From Deltaproteobacteria bacterium (GTDB taxonomy: Bacteria > Desulfobacterota_D > UBA1144 > Nemesobacterales > UBA2774): a stretch of DNA of 64,000 bases. The notes under the pieces are model-generated. The model did not search any database and was not told the origin of the DNA. It worked only from the letters and a program-made list of their open reading frames with translations. Shown one piece after another: positions 15,071-26,714 of the stretch (positions are counted from its first letter, which is position 1; every line of letters begins with the position of its first letter). Location of the stretch: contig JAVKFU010000015.1 of NCBI GenBank assembly GCA_040223695.1, positions 480,534 to 544,533 on the forward strand, written 5' to 3'. A program made the translations under genes and the position numbers.

Positions 15071-16375
15071 ATGAGTATCCCAGAAGGACTTAACGTCGCT
15101 CTCAATTTCGGATTTATGGACGCAGTTTTCACGAGGCGCTCCCGAAGGTTCGGACTGGGGATGGAGATAAAGGAGGGGACGCTCAAGCATCAATCCCGGC
15201 ACGATCCGGTGCCCCTGTCGGAGCTTGAGGAGGCGTTTTTAATATGGGCCGGTACGGGGATGACCGGGCTCTCGCTGGGCGACCTGCCGCGGACGGGGAT
15301 CTCGTGGCTCTTCCAATGGACTGGGCGGAGCTGGCCCTGCTCCTGCAATTCGCACTCTACGGAGCTTTTCTACACGAATGACGACGGGGTCTATATGGTG
15401 AGACTCCACGACATGATGCCGGCGCACGGAGAGACGACGATATTCCACGGACTGACAGAGGACAAGAAGCTGGAAAGGGTGCTCAATCTATTCAGGAAGA
15501 GCCTGGTCAGGCTCGAAGACGGAAGGGCCGACCTACCCCAAGGCGAGCCGGGTCTCTTCGACTTTAACGCCTGGAACTGCAACCGGCCGGGCACGACGTT
15601 TTTTATTCCGGTCACCAACACCACTGTCGAGTACATGGTTCTCCTGTTTATATATTTCGGCGCGAAGTACGGCTTTAATATAATCGACGAGCTTAACGGG
15701 GGGAGGTCCTGCGGGCTCGATAAGTGGATAGACAAGGGTTACATAAGAAAGGACGTCGAGCTTTCATTATTCGACCTCGAGCTCAGGGTGCTGACTACGC
15801 TCAACGTGGAGCAGGCGTTTATCTGCCAGAATATGAACCTCGCGCTTCAGACGCTCGGCCTAGGCGGATGGGCGTTCACGGGACTTCTCCCGCATTACGC
15901 CCTCGGAGTAAACCCCGAGTACAAGGGCCTGGGGTTCAGATTTACGCGGCCCGAAAAGACGCTCAGGAGCGCGACCCCGCCCGTTCCCGTGGGAAGGGAC
16001 GGCGTATTCGAGGCGCTCTGCCCGCCATACGTAAATGACATGGGGGAAGCGGTCGATAAATTCCTCATGATGAGGGGAAGGTTCTGGGAGGAGGACAACC
16101 CCTACCCATATAAAAACCCGGAGGGTGTGCTTGCCGACGAGTATCATCCGAGTGAAGTGAGAATCGAGATTGTGAAGGATTTCTGCACCTACGTTTACGA
16201 GAATTACGGACGCTTCCCGGCGTTTCTGGACCCGATGTTCGCACGGCTGGTATTTCAGGCTCATCATCTGGACCTCGAATTCTATGACAAATATTACTCG
16301 GAAGGCGCCTATACGGAAGTCCACAAGAGCCATTTCAAACTATGGCATCCTGATACAAAAGACCCGTTTGGATAG
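15071..16375 (+). CDS. Nitroreductase-like protein, uncharacterised
   Basis: The ATG at 15071 follows a good GGAG site, so an upstream in-frame ATG at 15032 is probably not used; this gives 434 residues. The N-terminal 'MDAVFTRRSRRFGLG' and 'PVPLSELEEAFLIWAGTG' look like the FMN-binding entry of nitroreductases, and 'QAFICQNMNLALQTLGLGG' looks like their central helix. Long additional segments have no match that I recognise. No partner gene is adjacent. A second copy of the last 30 or so codons lies 1.26 kb downstream, on the far side of an AT-rich nuclease gene. Confidence 0.55.
   Translation: MSIPEGLNVALNFGFMDAVFTRRSRRFGLGMEIKEGTLKHQSRHDPVPLSELEEAFLIWAGTGMTGLSLGDLPRTGISWLFQWTGRSWPCSCNSHSTELFYTNDDGVYMVRLHDMMPAHGETTIFHGLTEDKKLERVLNLFRKSLVRLEDGRADLPQGEPGLFDFNAWNCNRPGTTFFIPVTNTTVEYMVLLFIYFGAKYGFNIIDELNGGRSCGLDKWIDKGYIRKDVELSLFDLELRVLTTLNVEQAFICQNMNLALQTLGLGGWAFTGLLPHYALGVNPEYKGLGFRFTRPEKTLRSATPPVPVGRDGVFEALCPPYVNDMGEAVDKFLMMRGRFWEEDNPYPYKNPEGVLADEYHPSEVRIEIVKDFCTYVYENYGRFPAFLDPMFARLVFQAHHLDLEFYDKYYSEGAYTEVHKSHFKLWHPDTKDPFG
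16278..16369 (+). repeat. Direct repeat copy 1 (3' end of nitroreductase-like gene)
   Basis: This 92-bp stretch inside the end of the nitroreductase-like gene recurs at 17537-17628 in the same orientation, about 84 of 92 bases identical by eye. The differences cluster in one codon and in the four codons before 'DPF'. The two copies flank the AT-rich nuclease gene. Confidence 0.9.
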
Positions 16376-16398
16376 AAATTACTGAGTTTGAATTACTG

Positions 16399-17436
16399 CT
16401 AATTTTGAATGGCTTCTAATAAATCATATACTTTCTTTATCATCAACGATGAAATATCTTTTTGGCAGTCCTCATTTCTAATTAAGTTTTCATCAATCCA
16501 AGAACAAATCCATCCATCTTCTTCAATTACTTCTTTTTCTGAGTGCCTGAAAGTGTTAACAATCGTATTATCGTACTCGTTACCATCCACACCATAGCAA
16601 AGTGGTTTCCCATATTTTCCCCAGAATTGATACCACACTCCAAAGTAGAGTAACTCTTGGTTGTTATCGTCTTGTATATATATACTGTATTCTTCATTGT
16701 TAGATAAAGGTCTCCTAATCTTAATTTTGTTCCCAAACTCAATAGTAAGGTCATCGCGTAGATCGTCAACTATTTTGAATAGTTTTGTAATGACTTGAGG
16801 AATTTGATCAGAGAACATAAGTTTCACCTCCGAATTAGTAAATATTATAGGCATTCTCTCAAACCAACTCTTTAAGATGTTTACAAAATCATTGAAGTAT
16901 TGATTTACACTGGGAAGTTCATGCTTTTCTAGTTGCTCGATTATATCATTCCAATAGAGCTTTTGAGTTTTTACGTTTGAGTTCGGTAATACTATAGGTG
17001 TTCTTTTCCGCCATTCTTCTTTTTTAATTTCTCCAGGCATTCCTTTTCCCCACAGCTCTTTATGTCTATAATCTTTGGGGATTAAAAAAACTAGCCATTT
17101 CGTATTTTGATTACATTTGTTCAAATATTCAAGATAGCTCTTTGGTTGATTATTCGTGAGAGTGACGCTGCTAATTTTAATTTCAAAAATAATTTCAACA
17201 TCAACGTTACTAATGATTAGGTCAGGACGCCCATAGCGATAAAGAAATTTCTGTGTATCACAGTCCTCAAACTCAATCTTATCTAATATTTCTTTTTCTA
17301 AAAACAATTCGAGAACCGCAGATCTAAACGGTTTGAATTGCAGTAAATTACAAAACAATTCAGTTATAGTATCTTCATTTCTGACTATATTGTGAAATAT
17401 ATTGCGGTATCTATTGTTCATTTTCTTAAAAAACAT
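16399..17436 (-). CDS. PD-(D/E)XK nuclease-family protein
   Basis: This 345-residue protein carries a nuclease motif: D72 in 'YGRPDLIIS' and E85-x-K87 in 'EIIFEIKIS', the spacing of the PD-(D/E)XK fold. The N-terminal third resembles standalone PD-(D/E)XK proteins of phages and defence loci, and the remainder is unassigned. The gene is clearly AT-rich and rich in Asn, Lys and Ile codons, unlike its neighbours, and it lacks a good Shine-Dalgarno site (a second ATG is at 17421). It lies inside a pair of 92-bp direct repeats, so it was probably acquired. Target and role are unknown; anti-phage defence is possible but unproven. Confidence 0.65.
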   Translation of the reverse strand: MFFKKMNNRYRNIFHNIVRNEDTITELFCNLLQFKPFRSAVLELFLEKEILDKIEFEDCDTQKFLYRYGRPDLIISNVDVEIIFEIKISSVTLTNNQPKSYLEYLNKCNQNTKWLVFLIPKDYRHKELWGKGMPGEIKKEEWRKRTPIVLPNSNVKTQKLYWNDIIEQLEKHELPSVNQYFNDFVNILKSWFERMPIIFTNSEVKLMFSDQIPQVITKLFKIVDDLRDDLTIEFGNKIKIRRPLSNNEEYSIYIQDDNNQELLYFGVWYQFWGKYGKPLCYGVDGNEYDNTIVNTFRHSEKEVIEEDGWICSWIDENLIRNEDCQKDISSLMIKKVYDLLEAIQN

Positions 17437-17490: not shown

Positions 17491-17640
17491 ATGATTGCTT
17501 CGCTAAGACTCTTCCGGTCCTACCATTTCGATTTTAAATTCTATGACAAATATTACTCGGAAAGTGCCTATACGGAAGTCCACAAGAGCCATTTCAAACT
17601 ATGGCATCCCGGCGCGAAGGACCCGTTTAGCTCTAAATAA
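17491..17640 (+). pseudogene. Remnant of a second nitroreductase-like gene, 3' end only
   Basis: The frame ending at the TAA at 17640 encodes 'FYDKYYSESAYTEVHK' and on to 'DPFSSK', nearly the same as the C-terminus of the protein ending at 16375. Weaker similarity ('HFDFK' against 'HLDLE') reaches back to about 17491, and nothing homologous is seen before that. It is either the tail of a lost tandem paralogue or a gene end brought in with the nuclease gene. The AT-rich stretch 17641-17905 that follows holds no feature I can support. Confidence 0.75.
17537..17628 (+). repeat. Direct repeat copy 2
   Basis: This is the partner of 16278-16369, offset by exactly 1259 bp. The intervening 1.17 kb holds only the AT-rich nuclease gene and its flanks. 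Confidence 0.9.
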
Positions 17641-17905
17641 CGAGTAAGGTCGAATAACTTCACTAAGGTTCGGGTTCACAGAAAACCTTTCGGTTCTTAC
17701 ACCAAAAAAATGTTCATTTAATATGGTTTAGTAACAATTAGTTGTATGCCATACTTTATGTATTATACGAAGCCAAACTTTTCTTCTTGTATCCTGTTAA
17801 TTCCACATTTACCTTGCTATATTACACTCTTAATAAAATGGTTTAGGTATAGGTCTATATATACAGTACCTACGGATAGATAAACATAGATAACTAAGGT
17901 ATTTT

Positions 17906-18382
17906 CTAGGATATGTCGCAGTCAGGAATTCCGTGTAAAGAAAGATATTTGTTTTTATACCTTTTATCGTCCGTTACTTCGGCCCCGAGCCAATCAGGAG
18001 GAATAAAGGTTTTACTTTGATCCTCAGTTTTGAATTCAACCTCGGCAACTTTAAGCCCATGCAGATTGCCTGAATATATGTCAAGCTCGATTAAAAATCC
18101 CTCATATTCTATCTCATATCGGGTTTTCTCTATCCTTTTACCCTCGGTCATGGGCCAGAGAGCCTCGAATTGATCCCGGCTCAGCTCAATTTCGACCTCT
18201 CTTCTGACAAGCCCGCCGTCTGATTTGACCGTTTGATAGTATTGATCCCCCTTTTTACGCAAGCGGACCTCAAGGTCATCCGTAACAGCGATATAGCCCT
18301 GCTCTATTCTATGATTCGGATACTTATTTAGTTCCGGAGGCGGCTTAACTACTAAAAATTTTCTCTCTATTTCCCGGTTCAT
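17906..18382 (-). CDS. CYTH-domain protein (triphosphate tunnel family)
   Basis: This 158-residue single-domain protein has the N-terminal signature 'EIERKF' (residues 4-9) and alternating charged strands ('LEVRLRKKGDQYY', 'REVEIELSRDQF', 'LIELDIYSG', 'VAEVEFKTE') that line the tunnel of CYTH enzymes. Members hydrolyse inorganic triphosphate or nucleoside triphosphates; some make cAMP. It is the last gene of an operon with a ParA ATPase (38 bp upstream) and a CYTH-CHAD protein, so inorganic polyphosphate or triphosphate is the likely substrate class. The motif is intact, so activity is expected. Confidence 0.85.
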   Translation of the reverse strand: MNREIERKFLVVKPPPELNKYPNHRIEQGYIAVTDDLEVRLRKKGDQYYQTVKSDGGLVRREVEIELSRDQFEALWPMTEGKRIEKTRYEIEYEGFLIELDIYSGNLHGLKVAEVEFKTEDQSKTFIPPDWLGAEVTDDKRYKNKYLSLHGIPDCDIS

Positions 18383-18420
18383 CTTCAGTAAAGTGAGTTT
18401 AGAATATGAAAAGCTGCCCC

Positions 18421-19170
18421 CTATTTTTGGTTCATTATTCCCTTAATTTCATTCCACAGTTCCGTGTATATTCGGGTCGAGGGCGAGCCCGGCTCGGTTG
18501 CGGGCACAGGCTCCCTGTAAATTCCCATCTTCTCTATATCCGAGCGGTACGGGATGAGGGTTTTAAGAAAGTTATTGTCGCCGGAGGATAAATTATCGAT
18601 TATTTCCCTGTGCAGGTTTTTTCTGATTTCCACCATGGAAAAGAACGTATATAAATTCTTTCGCTTGAACCCCTTCTTCTTAAAAAAGCCGAGCAGCTTT
18701 TCGTAGGTGAGTACGGACAGGGTTGTCGGGACGAGAGGCACCAGAATATAATTCGCAGCGTCGAATACGTTCTCAGCAATGAGGGATATGCCCGGGGGAC
18801 AGTCGAGGAACAGGTAATCGTAATCATGACGTACCTCTTTAAATATCCTGCGGAGACGTGTGCCGGATTTCTTCATGTCGTCGAGCGCCAGGTCGAGATT
18901 TCGGAAGGATAGCTTTGAAGGAAGGAGGTCTAAGTTAGAATAGTCCGTGCCCCTGATATTTTTAACTATATTCCCCCCTCCCTTGATGAACTTGTTAGAA
19001 TTAAAGTTCTTTGATGCCTTGATCCGAAAATAAAAAGAGCATGCCCCCTGCGGGTCGAGGTCACAAATGAGAGTGCGAGAGCCTTCAAGCGCGGCCAGAT
19101 AGGACAGATTCACGGCAGCCGCTGTTTTACCTACCCCGCCTTTCATGCTGTAAAGGGCAATTGTTTTCAT
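18421..19170 (-). CDS. ParA/MinD-family ATPase
   Basis: This 249-residue P-loop ATPase has the deviant Walker A 'KGGVGKT' (residues 10-16), Walker A' 'CDLDPQG' and Walker B 'LFLDCPPG'. ParA-type proteins bind DNA non-specifically when ATP-bound and position plasmids, chromosomes or large cytoplasmic cargo. No parB, parS-like repeat or replication gene is adjacent. It sits between a CHAD gene (12 bp upstream) and a CYTH gene (38 bp downstream), so the cargo may be connected with polyphosphate. An orphan chromosome-partition role is the alternative. Confidence 0.85.
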   Translation of the reverse strand: MKTIALYSMKGGVGKTAAAVNLSYLAALEGSRTLICDLDPQGACSFYFRIKASKNFNSNKFIKGGGNIVKNIRGTDYSNLDLLPSKLSFRNLDLALDDMKKSGTRLRRIFKEVRHDYDYLFLDCPPGISLIAENVFDAANYILVPLVPTTLSVLTYEKLLGFFKKKGFKRKNLYTFFSMVEIRKNLHREIIDNLSSGDNNFLKTLIPYRSDIEKMGIYREPVPATEPGSPSTRIYTELWNEIKGIMNQK

Positions 19171-19182
19171 AAGACCACTACT

Positions 19183-20739
19183 CTAATGGCCGGAGAATAA
19201 TTTTTCAAACAACGCATCAGTCTCTTCATTGCTGAATTCCTCGAATCTTTTTTTGAAGGCCGCTCTTATTCCCTTCTGCCGTCTGTAGAGCTGGGATATA
19301 AGCCCGCCGGCAGACGCTATAATATCCCTTTCGGAATCCGTGCCGGAATCAAGCCCGGCTATATAACCCTTCAGCGTTTCCTGCTGGACGTGAAGGTCGT
19401 TGTAATCACCCAGGTTATCCTGAAGACCTTTTAATTGTTTAACCGTCTGCCTGATTTCCCTCTCCGGGAAAAGGGATTCGAAAAATTCCAGAAAATACCT
19501 GAGCTTTTTACACTCGATGCGCAGGGTATGCAGATCGCTTTCGGGCGAATCGTCGTTTATTTTATTGCCGAGCTTCAGAACCTTTTTATAACGTTTTCGA
19601 ATGTGCTTGTCCGCAAGCTCTATAACCGGCATAGCCGCATTCTTCGAAGGCCCGTCTGTTTCGTGAGGTTCGTTCAAAAATTTTTCCCAGGACTGGAGAA
19701 CGTTCCTGCAGGCCGGACTGTTTATGTATTCTACAAACTCCCGGTGGGCCTGCTGTCTTTCCTTCCGAATTATGGCGAATAACCTGTCGAGCCCGGGGCG
19801 GAGCTCCGCGGGGAGCATTTCCAAGTATTCGTCTTTTTTAAGAAGATATATATCGAGGTCCCTGAGTAGATTGGTCTTTTTGCCTAGCCCGGCGAAATCC
19901 CTCTTGTACCGGGTCTGTATCCTTTTTTGAAAGACGCCCTTTATGAGCGTCAGCACGGAGCGGGTTCTTCTGACCGCCACCCTGAAATCGTGGAGGAACT
20001 CGATGTCGATATCCTCCACAATTCCGTCTACATTTACCTTAATTGTATCGAGAAGGCTAAATAGTATTTTTCTGACAGCCTCCGAAGAGGACATATCCGG
20101 CTCGAGCTTGACGTTTATTTTGGACGAATATTCCCCCGGTGTTCTTCCCGCCAATTCGAGCGCGAGGGAGAGTAAATTGAGATCTGTTTTTTCAAGGCCG
20201 GGACGGTCCAAATACTGCTTCATCCTTTCGAGCTCTTCTACATACCCCCTGACAGGCTCTATATAAATCATATTAGCGGCTTTATTCTCGTGGCCGCCTT
20301 CAGTTAACCTTATTTCCTCATGACCGAGGAAAAGCACTGTTTTGTCATCCTTGTTAAGTAGCCTGTATCTGCTTATCAACCTCTCTACGCTCGTGAGAGG
20401 TAGGAGTGCCCTCACATCAATACAGGAGCGCAGTTTCTCCCTAAAAGAAGAGTCGGCAAAGTCCCACCAGAATTTAGGTTTCTTTTTCGTTTTGATGATA
20501 ACCGAATCCACTGTATCGTTACCTTGTGCTTTTATAAGAGCGTACCGGCTGCCCTCTCTCGCGAGCAAAAGACCATTTTTGTAGATTTTGTAATCGAAGG
20601 TGTCAAAATAGTTTTCCTCCTTCGTATGAGTCCCTTCTTTCCTCAGTTTGTAATTACTCTTGAGCTGACCAAGTACGGTATTGAAACCGGCCTCGTCATC
20701 GATAACAAAATATTCGATATTACTCAAACCCAACTCCAT
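19183..20739 (-). CDS. CHAD-domain protein with degenerate N-terminal CYTH domain
   Basis: The protein has 518 residues. About residues 1-200 resemble a CYTH domain ('YFDTFDYKIYKNGLLLAREG') but lack the N-terminal E-x-E-x-K signature, so catalysis there is doubtful. About residues 215-510 form a CHAD domain with the conserved basic helices 'FLHDFRVAVRRTRSVL' and 'LHTLRIECKKLRYFLEFF', which bind polyphosphate. It is the first gene of the CHAD-ParA-CYTH operon. The start ATG at 20739 has a TATAAT-like box about 15 bp upstream, which is close for a promoter. It is probably cytoplasmic, binding polyphosphate granules. Confidence 0.85.
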   Translation of the reverse strand: MELGLSNIEYFVIDDEAGFNTVLGQLKSNYKLRKEGTHTKEENYFDTFDYKIYKNGLLLAREGSRYALIKAQGNDTVDSVIIKTKKKPKFWWDFADSSFREKLRSCIDVRALLPLTSVERLISRYRLLNKDDKTVLFLGHEEIRLTEGGHENKAANMIYIEPVRGYVEELERMKQYLDRPGLEKTDLNLLSLALELAGRTPGEYSSKINVKLEPDMSSSEAVRKILFSLLDTIKVNVDGIVEDIDIEFLHDFRVAVRRTRSVLTLIKGVFQKRIQTRYKRDFAGLGKKTNLLRDLDIYLLKKDEYLEMLPAELRPGLDRLFAIIRKERQQAHREFVEYINSPACRNVLQSWEKFLNEPHETDGPSKNAAMPVIELADKHIRKRYKKVLKLGNKINDDSPESDLHTLRIECKKLRYFLEFFESLFPEREIRQTVKQLKGLQDNLGDYNDLHVQQETLKGYIAGLDSGTDSERDIIASAGGLISQLYRRQKGIRAAFKKRFEEFSNEETDALFEKLFSGH

Positions 20740-23272: not shown

Positions 23273-23725
23273 ATGGCACTGAAAAGATGGACACCGAGAA
23301 GCATGGAGAAGTTTTTTCATGAGATGTTTGAGGAGCCTGTCCCGGAGAGATTCCTTAGAAGGTTTCCCGCTCTCAAATGGATGAGGGACTATGAGGAGAT
23401 ATCACCTGCAGTGGATATGTACGACAATAAGGATGAGATCGTCGTAAAGGCCGAAGTCCCCGGAATCGAGAAAGAAAATATCAAGATATCGATTTCAGAT
23501 AGCGTTCTCACCATCAAGGGCGAGATGAAAAAGGAAGAGGAGACCAAGGAAGAGGATTATTATTACTCCGAGAGGTCTTACGGCAGCTTCCTAAGATCGC
23601 TCAATCTTCCGGCAAAGGTAGTGGAGAATAAGGTAAAGGCCGAGTTCAAGGACGGTATACTCGAAATTCACATGCCGAAAGCTGCTGAAGCGAAGCCGAA
23701 AGAGATAAAAGTCGAAGTCAGGTAA
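23273..23725 (+). CDS. Hsp20/alpha-crystallin small heat-shock protein
   Basis: This 150-residue chaperone holds unfolded proteins in an ATP-independent way. The alpha-crystallin domain runs from about residue 40 to 140, with 'VDMYDNKDEIVVKAEVPGI', 'SYGSFLRSLNLP' and the closing 'VKAEFKDGILEIHMPK'. The ribosome site is 'AAGGGGG'. It heads a run of stress genes, with the first universal stress protein 55 bp downstream, probably in one operon. Complex control sites lie upstream. Confidence 0.95.
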   Translation: MALKRWTPRSMEKFFHEMFEEPVPERFLRRFPALKWMRDYEEISPAVDMYDNKDEIVVKAEVPGIEKENIKISISDSVLTIKGEMKKEEETKEEDYYYSERSYGSFLRSLNLPAKVVENKVKAEFKDGILEIHMPKAAEAKPKEIKVEVR

Positions 23726-23780: not shown

Positions 23781-24644
23781 ATGAAAATAGATAAAATCGT
23801 TTGGGGGACTGACGGATCGAAAGATTCCATGCATGCACTCAGGCTGGCGGAAATCCTGTCCGCAAAGTTTAAATCCCGTATTCTCGGTATTTCTGTAATT
23901 CCCGAATACTACACGGTAGTGAACGCGTTTCCGCCCGCTGAGAAAGCGAAGTTTCACGACTGGGTCGAGCATAATCTGATAACAAGGAATAAAGAGAGCA
24001 TGGAAAAAATCAAGCGGGAATTATCCAGGAAAGAAATAAAATTCGATTATGAAATTATAAAGGGAATACCTTCAAAATCCATAACGAAATTTGCCGAGAA
24101 TGAAAACGCCGACCTTATAGTGCTGGGAAGAGGCAGGCTCCCCGAGCAGACGATCCTCGGCGGCACTGCCCTCAAGGTGCTCAGGACATCGAGGATACCG
24201 GTCCTGACCGTACGGGATGATAAATTGAAATACACGATAAATAAAATCCTGGTCCCTATAGCTCTGTCCCACGGTTTATCAAAAAATTTCGGCTACGCCA
24301 TGGACCTGTCCCGCGAGTTCTGCTCAATGGTGGATATTTTGAATGTAGTCGAAGTCGGATACCACCATTACCCACTCGAGCTTGCCGAGCTGCTTAAGGG
24401 GTTCGCTCACAGGGAGCTTCAGGGTATCGTCGGAAAATCCAGAATAACGGACAATCTCGACATGCATACCGTTACCGCCGTTAACGGATGGCGGGGAATA
24501 GTGGATTTTGCAATACGGAAAAAATCGGATTTAATTGTAATGAGTAGTTACGGGGAAGGGAAATTTAAAAAGGAATTTATAGGGAGTGTCTCGGAGAAGG
24601 TAATACAGGAGTCCCGCTGCCCTGTAATCACGATGACTCCCTGA
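23781..24644 (+). CDS. Tandem-domain universal stress protein (UspA family), copy 1
   Basis: Two UspA domains occupy about residues 1-145 and 150-287. Each starts with a beta strand followed by a Asp- or Pro-containing loop ('KIVWGTDGSKDS', 'KILVPIALSHG') and ends with the family C-terminal strand ('SRIPVLTV', 'SRCPVITM'). The ATP motif G-2x-G-9x-G is imperfect in both domains, so nucleotide binding is uncertain. A GGAGG site lies before the ATG. It lies between hsp20 and a second Usp gene 23 bp downstream, and all three are likely cotranscribed. Confidence 0.9.
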   Translation: MKIDKIVWGTDGSKDSMHALRLAEILSAKFKSRILGISVIPEYYTVVNAFPPAEKAKFHDWVEHNLITRNKESMEKIKRELSRKEIKFDYEIIKGIPSKSITKFAENENADLIVLGRGRLPEQTILGGTALKVLRTSRIPVLTVRDDKLKYTINKILVPIALSHGLSKNFGYAMDLSREFCSMVDILNVVEVGYHHYPLELAELLKGFAHRELQGIVGKSRITDNLDMHTVTAVNGWRGIVDFAIRKKSDLIVMSSYGEGKFKKEFIGSVSEKVIQESRCPVITMTP

Positions 24645-24667
24645 GCACGGAGAGCGGCGGAGCGCTT

Positions 24668-25567
24668 ATGGAAATAACTAAAATCCTCTGGGCTTCTGAC
24701 GGTTCCAGAGAATCGGATGAAGCGTTTAAAATGGCAATTTATCTGGCGGAAACATTCGGCGCGGAGATACTGTGTCTTTTCGTCAACGAAGTCCACATAC
24801 CGGTTACGCATCTCTACCCGAGCTACGAAGAAGTTATTCTGGGAGCGACCGAGAAAACCGAGTCCAGATTCAGGAATATGTTCGAGGAGCTGGGTAAAAA
24901 AAATCCGGGTATCGAATTCTCATCAAAAATCGTCAGGGAGAACATCGTGGACGGAATAATAAAATCCGCACGCGAAGAGAGCGCCGACCTTATAGTCATG
25001 GGGAAAAAGGGTCACGGGCTAATAGGGAGCGCGCTTCTCGGCAGCAATACCCTTAAAGTGCTCAGGAATTCTCCCGTGCCGGTTCTCTCGCTGAAACTCG
25101 AGGAAGGCAGGCAGTCTTACCGCGTCGGCAGGATACTCGTCCCGGTTGACATTTCGGACACAGCCGAATCCGCGCTCTGGAGCGCGCTCGGGCTCGCGGA
25201 AAAAACGGGGGCCTCCATAACGGCCGTTTATGTTTTCTGGATTAACGGAAATATATACGACCTGAGCCCTTCCCTGGTCGATGAGCTTATAGACCATTCG
25301 GCCGCTGAACTGAAATCCAGGGTGAGGCAGGTAAAAGAGGATTATGGACGTGCGCATAATAAAACCCCGGAGAGTGATATAAAAACCGAGGTGCTGAGCG
25401 GTGTAAGTCCCGGAGTTACAATAACGAATTACGCCGCGGATAATAATTTTGATCTCATAGCGGTCAGCACCCACGGAAGAAAAGGGTTTGAGAGGCTGAT
25501 ACTCGGAAGCGAGACCGAAAAGGTTATACGAGAGGCCCGTTGCCCGGTTCTGGCCTTAAAGCCCTAG
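24668..25567 (+). CDS. Tandem-domain universal stress protein, copy 2
   Basis: This 299-residue protein has two UspA domains. The first has the full ATP-binding motif G-2x-G-9x-GS in 'GKKGHGLIGSALLGS'; the second has 'STHGRKGFERLILGS', where the first Gly of the motif is replaced. Both end in the expected strand ('SPVPVLSL', 'ARCPVLAL'). The protein is probably an ATP-linked cytoplasmic stress regulator. It is the third gene of the hsp20 operon; a structured stretch follows it at 25608-25655. Confidence 0.9.
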   Translation: MEITKILWASDGSRESDEAFKMAIYLAETFGAEILCLFVNEVHIPVTHLYPSYEEVILGATEKTESRFRNMFEELGKKNPGIEFSSKIVRENIVDGIIKSAREESADLIVMGKKGHGLIGSALLGSNTLKVLRNSPVPVLSLKLEEGRQSYRVGRILVPVDISDTAESALWSALGLAEKTGASITAVYVFWINGNIYDLSPSLVDELIDHSAAELKSRVRQVKEDYGRAHNKTPESDIKTEVLSGVSPGVTITNYAADNNFDLIAVSTHGRKGFERLILGSETEKVIREARCPVLALKP

Positions 25568-25607
25568 AGAGAGTAATGTAAATCGACCAAACCGCTTCTA
25601 TTGAGTT

Positions 25608-25655
25608 TATCGGCGGAGGACGCGCGAGCCTGAAGAGAGCCTTCTCCCGCCGATA
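25608..25655 (+). other. Long-loop stem-loop between stress operons
   Basis: Perfect 9-bp arms TATCGGCGG (25608-25616) and CCGCCGATA (25647-25655) enclose about 30 nt that contains a smaller GAAG/CTTC stem. No T-run follows on either strand, so it is not a standard terminator. It may be a structured 3' end or a small RNA. The evidence is the symmetry alone. Confidence 0.35.
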
Positions 25656-25793
25656 CCGCGGGAAGATTACGGAAAACTGACAATCCGGCAGAGAATGCCG
25701 CCCTGGGCTCCGTAATGTTTCGCGACAAGAAATCTTCTTCATGAAATCATTGTCAAATGCAAAGAGGTGGAAAGCATTATTTTTATTAGGTTA

Positions 25794-25807
25794 TTTAATC
25801 GATTAAA
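25794..25807. promoter_or_regulatory. Perfect 14-bp palindrome upstream of the third Usp gene
   Basis: TTTAATC-GATTAAA is a perfect palindrome lying 38 bp before the TTG start at 25845, in an AT-rich stretch. It is well placed for an operator at a promoter. The binding protein is unknown. Confidence 0.4.
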
Positions 25808-25844
25808 ATAAGTGCCCTACAAAAGGAGATAAGGAGGATTAAAA

Positions 25845-26714
25845 TTGATTGATAAAATCGTTTGGACATCAGACGGTTCCAGAGACTCGCTCGACGCGCT
25901 GAATTACGCCGTGAATCTTGCCCGGATCTTTGGCTCGGAGATAGTGGGTCTCTACGTCATACCGGACTACTTCGAGGTTCCGACTCTCGATGAATTCCCG
26001 AGCACCGAGCTCGACCTCCTCGCTAGCTGGATCAAGGAAAAGGAATCAAAGGGCAGCGACAGGCTTAAAAGCATAGCAGAGGACCTGAGCTCGAGGGGAA
26101 TAAAGTTCAGCACGCGCATTACTCAAGGGGTTCCCTATCTTAAAATTATAGAGACGGCTGAAGAGCTGAACGCCGACCTCATAGTAATGGGCAAAGGCAG
26201 GGCCGAGGAAAAAAATATTCTCGGCGCAACAGCCCTGAAAGTTATCAGACGCTCAAGGATTCCCGTACTGGTAGCAAAAATGGATAAGTCTAAGGCGGAG
26301 ATAAAGAGAATCCTCATTCCAAGCGACATCTACAACATTCGTTCAAGGGATTTGGAGCTGGCGCTTGATTTCTCAAAGGATATGGGGGCCGAGCTTTTCA
26401 GTCTCAATGTAGTCGTAACCGGAGAGGGGAAATATCCGCCGGAGGTGATAGAGCGGATGAGGGGAAACGCTTACGACAAGCTCACCCAAACACTTGATGA
26501 TGAAGGGCTGGGAAAGTTAATAGAGCCTGTAGTCACTACCTCAAAAAACGCGTGGATGGGGATTGTAGATTTTGTTAAGGAAAAGGACGTAGACCTTATT
26601 TTCATGAATTCGTATCAGGGAGGCAAATTCCGGAGGGAGGAGTTTATAGGAAGCGTGGCCGAAAGGGTGGTACAGGAGGCTTCATGCCCTGTTATCACCG
26701 TAAAACCACTGTGA
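25845..26714 (+). CDS. Tandem-domain universal stress protein, copy 3
   Basis: This 289-residue protein resembles copy 1 in the 'IVWTSDGSRDSLDALNYA' start and in the second-domain ending 'FIGSVAERVVQEASCPVI'. The start is TTG at 25845, chosen because a strong AAGGAGG lies seven bases upstream. The first-domain motif is 'GKGRAEEKNILGATALK', again not a complete ATP motif. It has its own upstream region with a palindrome and is followed after 64 bp by the potassium channel gene, likely in the same transcript. Confidence 0.88.
   Translation: MIDKIVWTSDGSRDSLDALNYAVNLARIFGSEIVGLYVIPDYFEVPTLDEFPSTELDLLASWIKEKESKGSDRLKSIAEDLSSRGIKFSTRITQGVPYLKIIETAEELNADLIVMGKGRAEEKNILGATALKVIRRSRIPVLVAKMDKSKAEIKRILIPSDIYNIRSRDLELALDFSKDMGAELFSLNVVVTGEGKYPPEVIERMRGNAYDKLTQTLDDEGLGKLIEPVVTTSKNAWMGIVDFVKEKDVDLIFMNSYQGGKFRREEFIGSVAERVVQEASCPVITVKPL

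Follow-up and report, generated by a model that had tools for sequence, protein, structure and literature searches.

A CHAD-linked clade of ParA-type ATPases as a candidate machine for positioning or sharing out polyphosphate stores

The window, by which the whole analysed stretch of 64,000 nucleotides is meant, carries a ParA-type ATPase gene between the genes for a CHAD protein and a stand-alone CYTH protein. The CHAD-linked ParA is a member of a separate clade, marked by invariant residues that other ParAs lack, and its linkage to CHAD is real, being seen from both sides. For the placement and inheritance of bacterial polyphosphate (polyP) bodies, the CHAD-linked ParA, which is found in many phyla, offers a concrete candidate. 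It is regarded here as a strong but unproven candidate for a machine that positions or shares out polyP stores. The three-gene layout of CHAD, ParA and CYTH, with gaps of 12 and 38 bp, was confirmed: the open reading frames lie on one strand, exactly where the preliminary description had placed them, and the Pfam assignments agree, as listed below.

19183-20739, minus strand: gene 1, pseudo-CYTH and CHAD, 518 aa, called as an open reading frame with Pfam CHAD (7e-59); residues ~9-185 form a CYTH (TTM) fold lacking ExExK and residues ~205-514 a long-type CHAD
19171-19182, minus strand: 12-bp gap from the CHAD stop to the ParA start
18421-19170, minus strand: gene 2, ParA-type ATPase, 249 aa, Pfam AAA_31/ParA-type (2.1e-35)
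18383-18420, minus strand: 38-bp gap from the ParA stop to the CYTH start
17906-18382, minus strand: gene 3, stand-alone CYTH (triphosphate tunnel metalloenzyme), 158 aa, Pfam CYTH (1.7e-12)

All three genes are kept in the relatives from the window's order with untruncated loci (14 loci), so the arrangement lies far beyond chance. Promoter and terminator scans gave no signal above chance. The motifs on which the earlier functional reading relied are also present, namely an intact deviant Walker A in ParA (KGGVGKT), accompanied by the Walker A' DLDPQ and the Walker B D123, and an intact triphosphatase motif, EIERK, in the stand-alone CYTH.

The CHAD protein provides the connection to polyP. 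Its predicted structure (pLDDT 89.6) found as top Foldseek match 6QVA, the CHAD of Chlorobaculum tepidum in complex with polyP, with 40% identity and a TMt of 0.95. C. tepidum CHAD binds polyP, and mutation of H253, R256, R260, R296 or R418/Y419 weakens binding (PMC6537752). The polyP-contact residues correspond to H250, R253, R257, R293, R414 and Y415 in the window protein, which thus combines the CHAD fold with the contacting His, Arg and Tyr side chains, and in the alignment they are invariant in 21 of 21 ParA-linked CHAD proteins. Regarding the N-terminal domain, the model matches thiamine triphosphatases (ThTPase) and YgiF in Foldseek, indicating a TTM fold. E. coli YgiF resembles the window protein in its CHAD domain, its polyP contacts and its tie to ppk genes, as does the C. 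tepidum protein; YgiF, however, is an active tripolyphosphatase (PMC4641920), whereas the N-terminal domain of the ParA-linked proteins, that of the window included, lacks the catalytic ExExK. The name CYTH-CHAD used for gene 1 in the preliminary description therefore holds for the fold of the first 200 residues but not for the catalytic motif, and gene 1 does not encode a functional CYTH-CHAD enzyme. The idea of a Vtc4-like polymerase in this domain was dropped, as few tunnel residues appeared conserved when alignment A2 was inspected by eye.

Loss of the catalytic motif is a general property of the linked proteins. The ExExK of the N-terminal domain is gone in 86 of 87 long ParA-linked CHADs, and 84 of the 87 contain no such string anywhere within the first 75 residues; the three exceptions are two Nitrosomonas proteins (L052, L057), where the string lies outside the first strand, and a sphingomonad outlier (L079). 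The motif is present in 20 sampled unlinked CHAD proteins, a comparison that is partly selected because these come mainly from a Pseudomonadota sample picked for lying away from the linked ParA, and 13 other unlinked CHADs, mostly close kin of the linked type, also lack it. Both kinds occur together in Nitrosomonas ureae, in which the linked copy (L049) has lost ExExK and the unlinked copy (L174) retains it.

The linkage was approached from each partner separately. Of the 39 closest loci (L032-L070) in a search with ParA only, 35, spread over at least eight phyla, have CHAD next to ParA, and of 25 more distant control ParAs (L087-L111) none does. The linked loci selected in this way belong to Dadabacteria, Calditrichota, Latescibacterota, Binatota, Pseudomonadota, Desulfuromusa, KSB1 and Bacteroidota, among others. 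Conversely, a CHAD-profile search of about 400 genomes per phylum in two phyla, with query genomes excluded from the counts, returned ParA beside 73 of the 89 full-length matches examined (56/67 for Bacteroidota and 17/22 for Desulfobacterota), while low-scoring CHADs had an adjacent ParA in 0 of 7 cases. Most of the matches without a ParA neighbour adjoin genes for polyphosphate kinase, among them eight from Bacteroidota that lie beside ppk1. The earlier proposal was to be abandoned if this ParA rarely lay next to CHAD elsewhere; the frequencies of 35/39 and 73/89, obtained from both directions, show the reverse. The two genes overlap by 4 bp in 42 of 87 pairs, compared with the 12-bp gap in the window. 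In Binatota L042 and L047 the ParA and CHAD genes converge, with an overlap of the reading frames of ~185 bp and no operon.

One of these pairs probably includes the very CHAD that was crystallised with polyP. Over 310 aa the CHAD of L263 shows 100% identity to the chain crystallised from C. tepidum (3E0S), for which reason the species is taken as C. tepidum; a ParA of the linked type lies 2 bp downstream, and ppk1 ends about 1 kb upstream. The idea is therefore testable at once, since the pair occurs in an organism with a solved CHAD-polyP structure. The role of CHAD as adaptor, suggested by the preliminary description, gains support from the same source, as a ParA-linked C. tepidum CHAD binds polyP in the published structure. 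At Chlorobium-type loci, a repeat protein with units resembling CSGNRLxSLxGxP precedes CHAD (L263 3181-4002, L179 334-1437, L188 200-1363).

The ParA itself is a recognizable member of its superfamily. Its model matches Soj/ParA structures with TM scores of 0.81-0.85 in Foldseek, and the closest relatives in both fold and sequence are the Soj/ParA entries 9A6N, 8RAY and 6IUB. Judged from the sequence, the protein lacks an N-terminal DNA-binding extension and ends soon after its last helix, and inspection for a membrane-targeting tail revealed none that was obvious. Residues K10, K15, T16, D37, D39 and D123 are invariant in 85-86 of 86 linked ParAs, which places them among the deviant-Walker-A ParA/MinD ATPases. 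Beyond this common core, R49, R90, H187, E213 and G216 are found in 86/86 and K184 in 85/86, while neither R49 nor R90 occurs in any of 38 other ParAs. Mean net charge also differs, at +8 for linked ParAs versus -4 for comparison ParAs. In a tree built by a quick method, the relatives of the CHAD-linked ParA are set apart from ordinary ParAs by a long, fully supported branch, and CHAD linkage is clustered on the ParA tree, requiring 7 changes versus ~23 in shuffles.

CHAD linkage is not universal within the family, since sphingomonads and two Pseudomonadota subclades are unlinked, some members lying beside truA. A rule that all ParAs matching the profile are CHAD-linked was consequently rejected, as sister Pseudomonadota subclades adjoin other genes (truA) and sphingomonads are mostly without CHAD. 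In a broad Pseudomonadota sample of 399 genomes, CHAD was adjacent in at least 7 of 70 genomes with a ParA-profile match, and most of the unlinked matches fall in the sister subclades. L123, L126, L128, L137, L143 and others represent such a sister subclade without adjacent CHAD, some near truA-like genes. The sphingomonad-type relatives L078 and L080 lie directly before a Ppx/GppA exopolyphosphatase gene.

Since its fold is that of Soj/ParA and its ATPase motifs are intact, the protein might serve chromosome or plasmid partition and merely be placed in this operon. This explanation appears highly improbable. The sole ParB of the genome is encoded on contig C17 beside its own parA, which constitutes a separate canonical parAB; no ParB match was obtained on the window's contig and no parS-like site with up to 2 mismatches in the window, in accordance with the absence of parB and parS described earlier; and the ParA falls in its own clade with CHAD as a steady neighbour. 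Plasmid or phage partition was rejected in view of the missing ParB on the contig, the missing parS and the separate parAB. A defence system was likewise discarded, PADLOC having returned one weak match, to the Walker A region only.

The residues that contact DNA in Soj-type proteins were compared in addition. In HpParA, Lys227 and Lys230 contact DNA (PMC11229316). The residues Lys199, Lys227, Lys230 and Lys247 of HpParA align with R188 (mostly R/K), Y208, D211 and G228 of the window ParA, and among the linked ParAs position 208 is Tyr in 67/86 and position 211 Asp/Glu in 80/86. The equivalents of Lys227 and Lys230 are therefore mostly Tyr and Asp/Glu, and Soj-style nucleoid binding is not supported; the aligned residues would nevertheless be compatible with another DNA-binding surface. 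Compared with chromosomal Soj/ParA, its nearest relative in fold and sequence with the same intact ATPase motifs, the window ParA thus differs in its lack of ParB and parS, its clade, its replaced DNA contacts and its charge. Loop residues 50-52 of HpParA contact the ParB peptide (PMC11229316), and in the alignment the invariant R49 falls just after this loop, making a docking site for a specific partner plausible in this region.

The genes surrounding the pair relate it to polyP metabolism. Genes for polyP enzymes flank the pair or its ParA at 8 of the 39 loci of the family versus 0 of 25 controls (Fisher two-sided p=0.018), and in Desulfobacterota the PPK1, CYTH, CHAD and ParA genes form one run at L210, L211, L214, L217 and L223. 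Among 41 genomes of the window's order, 16 contain the CHAD-ParA pair and none has this ParA without CHAD; in 10 genomes of one genus of this order CHAD lies beside ppk1 instead of ParA, and in three of these loci that were examined the CYTH motif is intact and ppx is also present. All 16 genomes with the pair, comprising the window genome and 15 relatives, contain PPK2 and lack PPK1, so that polyP granules are not to be assumed there. Outside the order group, PPK1 was found in 33 of 36 genomes searched, which had been chosen for bearing the linked ParA or its sphingomonad relatives.

Such neighbourhoods also suit the main rival to the positioning reading. BcsQ acts in cellulose secretion, and the ParA could similarly switch the assembly or the activity of the polyP machinery instead of positioning it, its ATP-dependent dimer binding the pseudo-CYTH-CHAD protein and controlling synthesis, chain length or the access of PPK or CYTH. 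The neighbour of this CHAD type in Bacteroidota is either ParA (57) or PPK1 (8), and two genomes, G483 (L178/L236) and G840 (L237/L183), each hold a pair of pseudo-CYTH-CHAD paralogues, of which one adjoins ParA and the other ppk1. The unconserved Soj DNA contacts point in the same direction, and BcsQ folds also match the ParA model, but less strongly than Soj (E about 1e-12 versus 6e-20). Since enzyme regulation by this ParA is purely hypothetical, the switch is held to be a tentative possibility.

The third gene of the operon has a close counterpart of known activity. The stand-alone CYTH matches the structures of Nitrosomonas europaea NE1496 (2FBL, E=1e-44; 3TYP, E=7e-45), a protein given as a tripolyphosphatase (PMC13318637), with which it shares the stand-alone architecture, a length of ~155 aa and EIERK. 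Having both ExExK and an NE1496-like sequence, gene 3 can be assigned to the NE1496 type, and its activity is predicted; NE1496 is a counterpart of this third gene only. The earlier view of CYTH as a trimming enzyme is strengthened by this resemblance. A further explanation sees the unit as part of a general response to phosphate or metal stress, copper tolerance being one example, in which ParA would have some supporting role. A CHAD protein has been linked to copper resistance in E. coli in a paper that also shows the Acidithiobacillus order folD-ppk-parA-CHAD (PMC10892726). The same paper saw no metal-resistance genes nearby, and the need for a ParA-type ATPase would be left unexplained, making this explanation quite unlikely.

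Taken as a ParA-type system with polyP as cargo and pseudo-CYTH-CHAD as adaptor, the operon finds a reading that we consider somewhat probable. The link from ParA to a polyP cargo is strong, while we infer movement, nucleoid binding and contact between ParA and CHAD. The pseudo-CYTH-CHAD protein would coat polyP through its CHAD domain, polyP binding by the window protein being deduced from that of C. tepidum, and ParA would then act on the coated cargo, with the dead N-terminal CYTH domain as a plausible ParA-facing adaptor. The separate intact CYTH may hydrolyse tripolyphosphate or short chains, given its kinship with NE1496. McdA spaces carboxysomes by an ATP-driven cycle, and in a comparable cycle polyP bodies would most likely be spaced or split between daughter cells. 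The two systems are alike in a ParA/MinD ATPase without HTH beside a cargo-binding partner, here the conserved CHAD neighbour, and in an organelle-like cargo. They differ in that the window partner is a folded pseudo-CYTH-CHAD protein rather than McdB and the proposed cargo is polyP; McdA is a moderate relative of the window ParA (Foldseek E about 1e-12, 20% id), and inspection of the CHAD proteins in alignment A2 by eye revealed neither a conserved basic tail like that of ParB at the N or C terminus nor a basic disordered activating tail as in McdAB-like partners.

The proposal of polyP positioning thus gains from the linkage and from the adaptor and trimming roles, while the role of ParA as motor stays putative. 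Two sequence facts, the unconserved DNA-contact lysines and the missing basic ParB-like tail, speak against a plain Soj-like motor. With both features missing, a nucleoid ratchet is not the sole option. A more far-reaching and doubtful idea is a widespread, undescribed ParA class dedicated to polyP, which would not ride the nucleoid in the manner of Soj and, being acidic at the DNA-contact positions yet strongly positive in overall charge, may grip polyP or the CHAD-coated granule surface directly, the dead enzyme domain acting as docking adaptor.

Searches of the open-access literature brought up no earlier suggestion that polyP is served by a ParA system. AlgP of P. aeruginosa is required for even spacing of polyP granules (PMC9239181) and is comparable as a spacing factor, but it is a histone H1-like DNA binder and no ATPase. 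A 2025 review names AlgP as the sole polyP-granule factor and leaves open the need for ATP hydrolysis in positioning (PMC13052382). The conservation of folD-ppk-parA-CHAD in Acidithiobacillus was recorded without a functional reading (PMC10892726), and CHAD is unmentioned in a survey of multiple ParA/MinD ATPases per cell (PMC10241942).

Two further features of the window were observed near the operon. A 118-nt direct repeat (84%) at 16265-16382 and 17524-17641 duplicates the 3'-terminal part of the 15032-16375 gene, and between the repeats lies a 345-aa open reading frame (16399-17436) of low GC (about 33%) with no Pfam match; the picture resembles the insertion of a gene accompanied by duplication of the edge. 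At 23781-26714, three tandem reading frames that by eye resemble universal stress proteins follow an Hsp20-like reading frame at 23273-23725.
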